Shown here in pieces: positions 10,209 to 12,071 of a stretch of DNA of 64,000 bases. The notes beneath the pieces were generated by a model that was not told the DNA's origin, did not search any database, and worked only from the letters and a program-made list of their open reading frames with translations. Both the position numbers and the translations under genes were made by a program. This DNA comes from Arthrobacter sp. AFG7.2. Lineage in GTDB: Bacteria > Actinomycetota > Actinomycetes > Actinomycetales > Micrococcaceae. Positions within the stretch are counted from its first letter, which is position 1. Each line of letters starts with the position of its first letter. The stretch lies in assembly GCF_002892835.1 (NCBI RefSeq), contig NZ_PJMB01000003.1, positions 1 to 64,000 on the forward strand, in the 5' to 3' direction.

Positions 10209-11474
10209 CTAGCTGGCTTTTGAAGCGGCCGCGGCGCGCTTTTGGGCCAGCTTTATTTCCAGGACGGCGTCCATTGCCTGCTGGACGCGGTCAGCTGCTC
10301 CTGCTGCGCTGAAGGCCTTTTGGGCTTCCTCGAGGTGCACCAGGGCTTCCTCGGATTCACCTGCAGCCTTGAGCGACTTGCCCAGCAGCAGCGATACTTC
10401 ACCGGCGGTGTGCTTCGCCAGGCTGGTGCGCTCCGCATGAATTTCACGGAGCTTTTCGACGGCGGCAACAATGTCACCGGTCAGGTACAGCCACCGGGCA
10501 CGGATGAAGGCGACTTCGAGCTCATCACTCTTGGTTCCGCCGACGATGGAGAATGCCAGCTCCGCCCGCTCGATCGACGACAGTGTTTCCGGCTCAACAA
10601 TTCCTGACGAAAGTCGAACGGCCGCCGAGGCTTTGTTAAACCGGGCCCACAGCTCGATGTCATTGGCGGGGGAGAGCAACCGGGCTGCACGTTCATGGTG
10701 CTTGACCCCCTCTGTGTAGTCGTGACGCATAAAGGCAACATTTCCGACTACCCAGGCCACTTCCCCGGCAAGCTGGGACATTGACAGCTCGTCAACATGG
10801 TCAACCATGGCCTGGCAGTACTTCCAGGCTTCGTCCAGTCTGCCGCTTTCGGCCAACGCCCCGATCAGGGCCCGGTGGGCGCCAATGATGATCGTGGAGT
10901 TCTTGGGCAGCTGTGCAGAAAGCCGTACAGCTTCCATCGCGTGTTCCACCGCAACGCTTAGCTGGCCCTGTCCGTGGCACACAGCCGCAAGCATTTGGCG
11001 GGCCCTGACCCCGAGGCCGACAGACTCCGTCGCCATGGGATGTTCCAGCAGGTGCTGGATGATGCGCTGGCACTCCTTCAGGTTGCCCTGCTTCATCAGG
11101 CACTCGGCCTGCATATAGGTCATGTTCCACCAGGCACTCGTGTTCTTGCCGTCCAAGGCAATCTGAGCGGCTGTTGCAGCATGGCTGGCGGCCAGTTGGT
11201 AGTCCCTTAGGTCCCACGCCTGGCGGGCGTAGAGTCCGGCAAGGACGTATTCGGCGTCGCTGACTGTAATGGGCTGGCTCCAGGCCTCGAGTGCCTTCGG
11301 TGCCAGTTCCAGCCTGCGCGCCAGTTCCTCGATGACCTCCGCAGTGGGTTCCCTGCGGCCGGTCTCAAGTAGCGAAATATAGCTGGGGGAATACAGGTCT
11401 TTTCCCAGTTCTGCCTGTGTCAGCCCCCGTTCGAGACGCTCCGCACGGAGCTTCTCCCCGAATCCGTTGCCCAC
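10209..11474 (-). CDS. XRE-type HTH regulator with C-terminal TPR-like repeats, candidate peptide-pheromone receptor
   Basis: 421 aa. Residues about 3-57 form a Cro/C1-type helix-turn-helix (FGEKLRAERLERGLTQAELG, then SYISLLETGRREP). The remainder is all-helical with TPR-like pairs, for example AWWNMTYMQAECLMKQGNL, LAGEVAWVVGNVAFMRHDY and TAGEVSLLLGKSLKAAGES. HTH plus TPR is the architecture of RRNPP receptors (Rgg, NprR, PlcR, PrgX) that bind secreted peptides; NprR is about the same length. The GTG at 11474 follows a perfect AAAGGAGG at 7 nt. The gene is divergent from a 71-aa secreted peptide gene, with shared inverted repeats between them. Peptide binding is inferred; other XRE-TPR proteins respond to other ligands. 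Confidence 0.85.
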   Translation of the reverse strand: MGNGFGEKLRAERLERGLTQAELGKDLYSPSYISLLETGRREPTAEVIEELARRLELAPKALEAWSQPITVSDAEYVLAGLYARQAWDLRDYQLAASHAATAAQIALDGKNTSAWWNMTYMQAECLMKQGNLKECQRIIQHLLEHPMATESVGLGVRARQMLAAVCHGQGQLSVAVEHAMEAVRLSAQLPKNSTIIIGAHRALIGALAESGRLDEAWKYCQAMVDHVDELSMSQLAGEVAWVVGNVAFMRHDYTEGVKHHERAARLLSPANDIELWARFNKASAAVRLSSGIVEPETLSSIERAELAFSIVGGTKSDELEVAFIRARWLYLTGDIVAAVEKLREIHAERTSLAKHTAGEVSLLLGKSLKAAGESEEALVHLEEAQKAFSAAGAADRVQQAMDAVLEIKLAQKRAAAASKAS

Positions 11475-11607
11475 GGGTTTTCCTCCTTTTCCGGACGGTC
11501 TTCGTACAAAATGCTTGACAGTCCCTGTGGAAAACATTTTACAATGTATGTCAACAAGGACAGTGCTGGCTTTGTAACGAATCCGACTCGTATTGAGGAA
11601 CCTATAT
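11475..11607 (+). promoter_or_regulatory. Divergent control region of regulator and peptide gene
   Basis: Rightward promoter: TTGACA (11515-11520, full consensus) and TACAAT (11540-11545) at a slightly long 19-nt spacing. Symmetry elements: TTGACA (11515-11520) is mirrored by TGTCAA (11549-11554), so a pair of half-sites encloses the core promoter; ACATT-TTAC-AATGT (11534-11547) sits on the -10 box; AAAATG (11508-11513) is mirrored by CATTTT (11535-11540). These are candidate operators for the adjacent XRE regulator. A TTGAGGA ribosome site lies about 9 nt before the peptide ATG. Confidence 0.7.
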
Positions 11608-11823
11608 ATGTTGAAGAAGATCGCAACCGCGGCCGCACTGGCAGGCGCACTTGCCTTTTCTGCTGCGGCTCCAGCTGTCCTGTCTGCCGGTTCCCTCGCG
11701 GAATCCACCGGTACTTCGGTAGCCATAGGTAACTGGCCCGACCCCATGTCCAAGAAGACCAAGGACAAGGGTGCGGACACCACGTACACCACCTACATTG
11801 GCAACTGGCCTGACCCGATGTAA
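11608..11823 (+). CDS. Small secreted peptide precursor with duplicated IGNWPDPM, candidate pheromone
   Basis: 71 aa. Residues 1-27 are a Sec signal: MLKKI, a hydrophobic Ala/Leu core, and cleavage plausible after VLSA (27). The mature part has IGNWPDPM at 40-47 and again at 64-71, the second copy being the exact C-terminus. A polar Lys/Thr-rich spacer (SKKTKDKGADTTYTTY) separates them. The two copies differ at four codons, all synonymous, so the octapeptide itself is constrained. Own near-consensus promoter and strong terminator make it monocistronic. The divergent neighbour is an HTH-TPR regulator, so I infer an exported, processed signal peptide. Alternatives are a bacteriocin or cell-surface peptide. 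I recognise no described family. Confidence 0.8.
   Translation: MLKKIATAAALAGALAFSAAAPAVLSAGSLAESTGTSVAIGNWPDPMSKKTKDKGADTTYTTYIGNWPDPM
11725..11820 (+). repeat. Two in-frame copies of an 8-codon unit encoding IGNWPDPM
   Basis: Copy 1 at 11725-11748, copy 2 at 11797-11820, 48 nt apart. The Ile, Gly and both Pro codons differ between copies (ATA/ATT, GGT/GGC, CCC/CCT, CCC/CCG) with no amino-acid change. Tandem mature peptides inside one precursor are typical of processed signals. Confidence 0.9.
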
Positions 11824-11853
11824 ACAGCTTCCTCAGCATTTGGAGGCGAGGAG

Positions 11854-11890
11854 TGACCCCGGAGCGCAACCTCCGGGGTCATTCCTTTTA
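11854..11890 (+). terminator. Rho-independent terminator of the peptide gene
   Basis: GACCCCGGAG (11855-11864), 6-nt loop, CTCCGGGGTC (11871-11880), then ATTCCTTTT. The perfect 10-bp stem begins 31 nt after the peptide stop. Confidence 0.9.

Positions 11891-11994: not shown

Positions 11995-12071
<77 letters not shown>

Follow-up and report, generated by a model that had tools for sequence, protein, structure and literature searches.

The signaling systems closest to the one described here are those of the RRNPP/RRNPPA group of Bacillota (Rap-Phr, NprR-NprX, PlcR-PapR, Rgg-SHP, PrgX, and AimR-AimP), in which a tetratricopeptide repeat (TPR) receptor is encoded beside a secreted pro-peptide gene. 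RRNPP surveys, in the parts consulted, place such systems in Bacillota; the signals of Actinomycetota are, according to excerpts of one source, typically small molecules (PMC10075063), and Arthrobacter is named in excerpts of another for LuxR-type regulators and quorum-sensing inhibition (PMC4748050). In this study, we analyzed a stretch of 64,000 nucleotides (nt) from Arthrobacter sp. AFG7.2 (contig NZ_PJMB01000003.1, positions 1 to 64,000), hereafter the window, in which the gene for a TPR protein with a helix-turn-helix (HTH) domain diverges from a small gene for a putative secreted precursor carrying two copies of the octapeptide IGNWPDPM. As in the RRNPP/RRNPPA systems, a TPR receptor gene adjoins a pro-peptide gene, HTH-bearing and HTH-less receptors both occur, and a short linear peptide is the likely ligand; unlike them, the system belongs to Actinomycetota and includes leaderless peptide open reading frames (ORFs). 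Judging from comparative sequence analysis, RRNPP-like intracellular peptide signaling in Actinomycetota is the most likely role of this gene pair, whose features are:

10209-11474, minus strand: HTH-TPR regulator of 421 residues, the proposed peptide receptor, GTG start at 11474 (translation, Pfam)
11283-11462, minus strand: XRE-type HTH domain, residues 5-64 (Pfam HTH_31; model confidence low here)
10215-11267, minus strand: TPR solenoid, residues about 70-420, with the proposed peptide groove (helix pairs in the AlphaFold model)
11608-11823, plus strand: putative secreted multi-copy peptide precursor gene, 71 residues (translation)
11608-11691, plus strand: signal-peptide-like N-terminus, approximate, residues 1-28 (inspection only)
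11725-11748, plus strand: IGNWPDPM copy 1, residues 40-47 (translation)
11797-11820, plus strand: IGNWPDPM copy 2, residues 64-71, exact C-terminus (translation)
11848-11888, plus strand: intrinsic terminator of the precursor gene (inverted repeat, fold energy)

Translation and Pfam reproduced the core of the original prediction, namely an HTH-TPR protein on the opposite strand, 133 nt from a 71-residue precursor with two identical octapeptides, one of them forming the exact C-terminus. The regulator matches HTH_31 (E 9.9e-12), HTH_3 (E 3.3e-11), and TPR_12 (E 8.6e-9) above cut-off, and the 133 nt separate the start codons of the two divergent genes. As was also claimed, the four base differences between the two 24-nt peptide units are all silent (ATA/ATT, GGT/GGC, CCC/CCT, and CCC/CCG), and the precursor gene has its own terminator, a hairpin at 11848-11887, 3′ of the gene, of -33.3 kcal/mol (z -6.9 versus shuffles). 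The proposed Sec targeting stood in that a signal-like start is present (K-rich, then a hydrophobic core, then small residues), but this start was read by inspection of the residues only. In precursor alignment A2, the best-kept columns besides the motif fall in this signal-like N-terminus. No Pfam family matched the precursor, and the one NCBIfam entry listed reached E 0.056 over the first 26 residues only, far under its cut-off. The window genome contains one receptor match at E<=1e-20, and the GNWPDP pattern occurs in it only as the two copies of this locus.

The gene pair is conserved as a unit. The receptor profile was built from the window protein and the 45 relatives of regulator alignment A1, which are 81-93% identical to it; 138 relatives were found in the named genome collection and 80 were kept, under the names Arthrobacter, Pseudarthrobacter, or Paenarthrobacter plus one Micrococcaceae metagenome-assembled genome. 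Conserved pairing across relatives had been set beforehand as the refuting test for the proposed circuit, and it was found throughout: all 80 loci, although picked by their receptor, have a divergent precursor with an xGxWPxPx motif, 124-146 nt from the receptor start. With the precursor as query, tblastn matched every one of the 179 genus genomes at E<=1 and 178 at values below 1e-6; the remaining one (G155) is assembled in 730 contigs. The same search gave no match below 0.002 in 118 same-order genomes. A GNWPDP codon pattern was present in 172/179 genus genomes, with 1 to 12 matches each, often as closely spaced copies among the matches listed. A chance repeat was rejected, as the pattern in reverse, used as a control, gave a single match across the 179 genomes. 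Precursors carry one to four copies in the genus and up to six in other genera, and the conserved peptide core spans 5-8 residues. Mature RRNPP peptides have 5-10 residues and often come from the C-terminus. The exact C-terminal copy seen in the window is typical of the genus (52/54 genes and 77/80 named loci) but not of the family, where only 2 of the 14 loci of genus g60 end in the motif. Two stop-interrupted precursors (L065 and L066, in G175 and G120) retain a single peptide copy that is not C-terminal.

Selection on the peptide was read from 54 distinct genus precursor genes, identical genes being counted once and loci being partly chosen by precursor similarity (L002, L003, L044, and L067 were dropped from the precursor sets). 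Two copies are present in 41 of these genes, three in 4, four in 5, and one in 4. Octapeptides of the same gene are identical in 80/83 pairs, and the codon differences between copies comprise 205 silent and 3 replacing changes, where random change would be expected to give about 17% silent. The first copy equals the last in 49/50 multi-copy genes, compared with a mean of 14.3 and a maximum of 26 in 10,000 shuffles. Linkers between the octapeptides vary in length and sequence. By these codon counts, the identity of the octapeptide is under strong purifying selection; a DNA-level repeat without protein function was rejected because the copies differ almost solely at silent sites. Such nearly identical copies resemble the multi-copy precursor of the yeast alpha-factor. 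Variants between species or genes include IGNWPDPM, VGNWPDPM, TGNWPDPM, GNWPDPA, GNWPNPM, and GIWPDPM, and in the last three all copies of a gene have changed together. At the named loci, the copies are identical in 69/76 multi-copy genes. No receptor residue co-varied with the Met/Ala peptide variant, and co-variation with other variants was not used, as the matches were inseparable from relatedness.

The region between the two genes contains a conserved box with the following elements:

11514-11559, plus strand: 46-nt conserved operator/promoter-like box (conservation across the genus and other genera)
11515-11520, within the box: TTGACA
11540-11545, within the box: TACAAT
11549-11554, within the box: TGTCAA arm
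11534-11547, no strand assigned: inner palindrome ACATTTTACAATGT over the -10 element (sequence reading, alignment)

The symmetric repeats that had been noted over the -10 element correspond to this inner palindrome. Of the TTGACA promoter proposed with them, both elements are present, but the promoter scanner reports none because they are spaced by 19 nt and it allows 16-18. The looser form of the box, CTTGACA-N28-TGTCAACAnGG, is found at 55/55 genus loci (one site was fetched twice) and the stricter form at 69/80 named loci. In other genera, TTGACA, a core reading TTTAC, and TGTCAA are similarly arranged between the genes at 19/19 HTH-TPR loci (L153-L170 and L172; the arm is CGTCAA in L162), with weaker scores of 15.7-42.5 of 89.9. 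The box was not found at L171, L193, or the 28 TPR-only and 9 leaderless loci scanned, where the best score was -11.5. A box common to leaderless or TPR-only loci was rejected (0/13 leaderless loci, then 0/28 TPR-only and 0/9 leaderless). In the window genome, the core occurs once at up to 3 mismatches, at this locus. The arms would fit a dimeric XRE operator overlapping both divergent promoters.

A second receptor type lacks the HTH domain and is about 340-355 residues long. All 38 genus genomes checked for receptor types, which are those among the GNWPDP pattern matches listed, have an HTH-TPR receptor, and 28 also have a TPR-only one. A quickly built tree, in which some branches are long, separates the two types by a single branch (SH-aLRT 96). 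A small ORF with a signal-peptide-like start and a WP motif that is repeated or terminal diverges from 33 of the 34 TPR-only receptors examined. These partner peptides are IGWWPN/D, VGWWPH, IGSWPN, TGWWPN (four to six copies), IGWWPN (four copies), GGWWPH/N (three copies), and VNWWPN/D in the genus, and VGYWPF, VNNWPG, VNWWPN, IDNWPN, and KVGNWPD in other genera. At L171, two tandem TPR-only receptors share one 6.5-kb stretch, each with a divergent precursor (KVGNWPD copies for one and IDNWPN for the other).

Peptide copies also occur in ORFs lacking a leader, which were counted by the exact GNWPDP pattern in 37 genomes (G097 was excluded; single pattern matches in G050 (C16) and G060 (C9) and one in G097 were judged chance and dropped). 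Start codons of these ORFs are partly guessed. They are present in 19/37 genomes, namely in 19/28 with a TPR-only receptor and 0/9 without (Fisher p 4e-4, relatedness uncorrected). One class is short, about 11-34 residues. The motif forms the exact C-terminus in MTVIGNWPDPM, MNRIGNWPDPM, MQNHIHSIGNWPDPM, and an 81-87-residue class (MKIPRSELPVITAAVN...) that ends in IGNWPDPM at L036, L248, L264, and L265 (and at L256, with masked bases); one member of this class was scanned and matched no family. Class B ORFs contain 2-4 octapeptide copies, interspersed in some ORFs with WWP-type copies, and the WWP type is that of the genome's own TPR-only precursor in G020 (IGWWPD), G115, and G158 (both IGWWPN). 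The first octapeptide residue, I or V, is the same in leaderless and secreted forms in 12 of the 13 genomes compared, out of the 19. Class B ORFs sit downstream of a secreted-looking Pro/Ala-rich protein, X, mostly ending in FDPGSSPD. The X proteins of L033, L034, L041, L043, L045, L047, L049, L052, L058, L254, L257, and L261 differ widely but all end in PGSSPD. Four X proteins of class B loci matched no Pfam family, and so fixed a tail might be released as a peptide in its own right. Several X proteins are separated from the class B ORF by a hairpin-like GCAGG repeat.

Beyond the genus, the precursor profile matched 47/245 family genomes at E<=0.01, including 29 outside the genus, and a homologous receptor adjoins the precursor at 20/20 loci read from those 29. 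Precursors of genus g60 (14 loci) carry one to six IGNWPDPM copies. Other peptides are VGNWPDP followed by S, A, T, or F (L157, L167, and L168), three copies of PGNWPD (L169), three of KVGNWPD with a final VGNWPD (L171), and two of AVGIWPNS (L172). A twenty-first locus, in G310, has five copies of VGNWPDRFYSVTPA beside a 388-residue HTH protein matching the regulator. The next gene detected past the precursor gene in the window serves as a same-site marker in relatives:

11995-12071, minus strand: tRNA-Pro(CGG) (ARAGORN)

This tRNA gene is present at 23/28 checked (chosen) loci in five genus groups, which suggests that the chromosomal site of the pair is old and vertically inherited. Neighboring translations in the window, judged by eye, are enzymes of purine synthesis and proteins of ABC transporters, with the tRNA between; no modification or immunity gene was noticed among them by eye, no family scan having been made of them.

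The receptor search in 119 order genomes gave matches below 1e-20 in seven, four of the genus and three of the family, and none in another family. A tandem-motif pattern, which limits the gap and misses widely spaced copies such as those of the window, matched 10 of 396 order genomes (5/10 of the genus, 4/25 of the other family genomes, and 1/361 others). Among the family matches, that in G307 looks like chance. The sole match outside the family, G533, was rejected: its copies lie 21 nt apart, and its locus (L173) has neither a receptor match nor a small signal-peptide-like WP ORF. In 296 phylum genomes, the tandem motif was found in G002, of the genus, and in G809, which was rejected as a family outlier because the match is a short DNA repeat. 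A phage origin was rejected, the regulator being unmatched among 50,697 phage records. Plasmid matches amount to 37 records, all below 60% identity; the best 15 of these, mostly from Streptomyces, are 24-28% identical over 78-95% of the length. These 15 actinobacterial plasmid regulators have the same domain order as the window protein, but the two neighborhoods read show no annotated WP-motif gene. They belong to Streptomyces plasmids (L281 and L282) whose HTH-TPR regulators are about 26% identical to the window protein; L282 has ATP-grasp genes nearby and a 74-residue hypothetical gene, known by annotation, divergent from the regulator.

Several features of the RRNPP systems recur in this family. 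Both receptor types are present, the HTH-bearing one as in PlcR, NprR, Rgg, and PrgX and the HTH-less one as in Rap, and a small pro-peptide gene with an N-terminal export signal, recognized by pattern and by eye, adjoins the receptor at 80/80 loci. The receptor is a tandem TPR solenoid according to Pfam (TPR_12) and to all-helical AlphaFold models (pLDDT 79.5 for the regulator and 93.3 for a TPR-only protein), and it is presumably cytosolic because it has no export signal. RRNPP peptides re-enter the cell through an oligopeptide permease, for which the window genome encodes 9 candidate peptide-binding proteins (SBP_bac_5). A sequence search of the PDB matched PlcR in the HTH only (E 0.007). 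In VIA-align, the best match of the regulator was LGN (6hc2; Z 28.5, root-mean-square deviation 4.9 over 342), with NprR (5dbk; Z 21.2, 5.0 over 318) and RapI (4i1a; Z 20.9, 5.0 over 331) below it. The TPR-only model likewise matched LGN/Pins best (Z 27.7), then RapI (20.1), NprR (20.0), RapH (18.6), and pLS20 Rap (18.5). The Rap and NprR matches do not rise above unrelated TPR proteins, so that the models do not single out RRNPP receptors; matches of such models show the fold, not function or membership. The 80 loci are all from Micrococcaceae, outside the described range of RRNPP, which is Bacillota and their mobile elements (Bacillota genomes were not in the search). With no RRNPP-named model among the hits, fold matches shared by TPR proteins at large, and a lineage beyond that range, we do not file the system as an RRNPP member, and membership is not shown.

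Pairing at 80/80 loci, selection on the peptide, conservation of the box, and TPR-only receptors with precursors of their own lend comparative support to the actinobacterial RRNPP-like circuit of the original prediction. The system extends further than that prediction had it, with HTH-less receptors and with peptide ORFs that lack a leader. Secretion, maturation, re-import, binding, the direction of regulation, and the regulated trait are what we infer beyond these observations. The small gene would encode a Sec-exported pro-peptide in which one short signal is repeated: IGNWPDPM at this locus and, across the family, variously ended forms of a GNWPD-like core. Proteases would free the copies outside the cell, an oligopeptide permease would re-import them, and they would bind in the concave groove that the TPR repeats of the cytosolic regulator form. 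This would alter the hold of the HTH-TPR regulator on the palindromic box between the divergent genes, placing the signal gene under the control of its own circuit, possibly along with other targets that have weaker sites. The HTH-less receptor would read a second, related peptide (GWWPN or VNWWPN types in the genus) and perhaps act via a protein partner, as Rap proteins do. We consider this full model of secretion, import, and binding, working like RRNPP, to be probable, and place still more confidence in the peptide being the ligand of its paired TPR receptor. More tentative, and in our judgment somewhat short of an even chance, is a two-channel peptide code in which HTH-TPR receptors read GNWPD-type peptides, optional TPR-only receptors read WWP-type peptides, and leaderless cytosolic mini-proteins that string together one or both ligands let a cell set its own receptors internally, whatever its neighbors do. 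Such an internal layer of pheromone mimicry was not found described for RRNPP systems in the parts of the literature consulted.

A number of observations weigh against this RRNPP-like reading. A stop codon lies inside the matched precursor stretch in three genus genomes (G175, G143, and G120), and copies are unlike in 7/76 multi-copy named genes. Outside the genus, only the core is common to the copies, and in L167 and L168 the last residue varies within one gene. More distant HTH-TPR relatives of the same family (L199, L205, and L206) have no precursor recognized by the search used; their receptors may have other ligands. No precursor lies closer than 800 nt to the thirty-fourth TPR-only receptor (L238), the WWPN repeats there being about 1.7 kb away, and the TPR-only receptor beside KVGNWPD at L171 (g84) means that peptide type is not tied to receptor type everywhere. 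As the box core occurs solely at its own locus in the window genome, no regulon beyond the gene pair was seen. Leaderless ORFs would yield a ligand that never leaves the cell, a feature for which plain quorum sensing gives no account, and their copies do not always agree with the secreted ones: that of G065 has V in place of the I of its secreted peptide, the final residue in G150, G084, and G164 is L and not the M of the secreted copies, and G065 and G096 carry IGFWPDF and IGYWPDF beside an IGWWPN system. On the receptor side, the fold matches are to TPR proteins generally, the best being eukaryotic LGN/Pins; six receptors, the window regulator among them, matched no RRNPP-named Pfam model (such as RNPP_C or Rgg_C) at E<=1, the presence of such models in the library being unchecked; and with SBP_bac_5 in 11/14 control genomes, its presence is weak support.

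In one alternative, the WP peptide is a short linear motif that docks in the TPR groove of the regulator directly in the cytosol. Export of the precursor would remove this ligand, so the regulator would sense export efficiency, and the leaderless ORFs would provide a non-exportable ligand. Short motifs at protein C-termini are ligands of TPR domains in other systems, and the leaderless ORFs (starts partly guessed) have the motif at their exact C-terminus or in 2-4 internal copies and follow the TPR-only receptor in their distribution (19/28 against 0/9, relatedness uncorrected). However, multi-copy arrays, variable linkers, and a signal peptide better fit a processed secreted pro-peptide, 12/14 g60 precursors are not motif-ended, and the exported form is found in 178/179 genus genomes (below 1e-6), whereas 18/37 lack the leaderless exact-GNWPDP form. 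We regard this reading, an intracellular ligand or sensor of export status, as unlikely.

A secreted antimicrobial or RiPP-like (ribosomally synthesized and post-translationally modified) peptide with a local regulator would also account for a short, repeated, putatively secreted peptide next to a regulator gene. Yet its neighbors are purine-synthesis and ABC transporter genes, no modification or immunity gene being noticed by eye (no family scan). The site has tRNA-Pro nearby in five genus groups, and members of the genus share an almost unchanged peptide core, unlike typical bacteriocins; this explanation appears very improbable. Near-universal presence and strong conservation in the genus would suit a small protein with a structural or wall-associated role, controlled by a housekeeping XRE regulator, with the repeat as a binding or folding unit and not a signal. 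Such a role fits poorly with linkers that vary while the octapeptides hardly do, with a copy number of 1 to 6, and with TPR-only receptor relatives that pair with related peptides, and we give it just as little credence.

If RRNPP-like signaling by the octapeptide is correct, cell-cell communication in Arthrobacter and its relatives opens to direct test with the synthetic octapeptide. The peptide system was matched in 178/179 genomes of a common soil genus group, and a signal shared by species would make cross-species talk possible. With the leaderless strings, one can ask whether bacterial cells supply their own pheromone receptors with ligand internally. No paper with GNWPDP was found in the open-licence literature, none there contained as many as four of the terms WWPN, NWPD, Arthrobacter, Micrococcaceae, pheromone, and signal peptide, and no actinobacterial RRNPP-like system was recognized there among the titles and abstract starts listed.

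As far as excerpts of the cited papers describe them, the known systems differ from this one in several respects. In many RRNPP members, the receptor followed by the peptide in one operon is a hallmark (PMC7425212), whereas the genes are divergent here. RRNPP peptides evolve fast (PMC9765709), and a core nearly fixed across the genus is a puzzle in this light. Several pheromone copies per pro-peptide are also found in Rap3T-Phr3T and Rap105-Phr105 of Bacillus phages, where the copies are processed outside the cell, as is proposed here; those precursors give several mature pheromones of varying affinities (PMC11343458), whereas 80/83 copy pairs are identical in our set. The Alo systems of Paenibacillus are, like the present family, lineage-wide pairs of a TPR receptor and a secreted pro-peptide found by genome mining, and they form receptor-peptide operons with at least 16 systems in one strain (PMC7425212). 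In contrast, the Arthrobacter genes are divergent, with one HTH-TPR system per genome checked and an optional TPR-only one.

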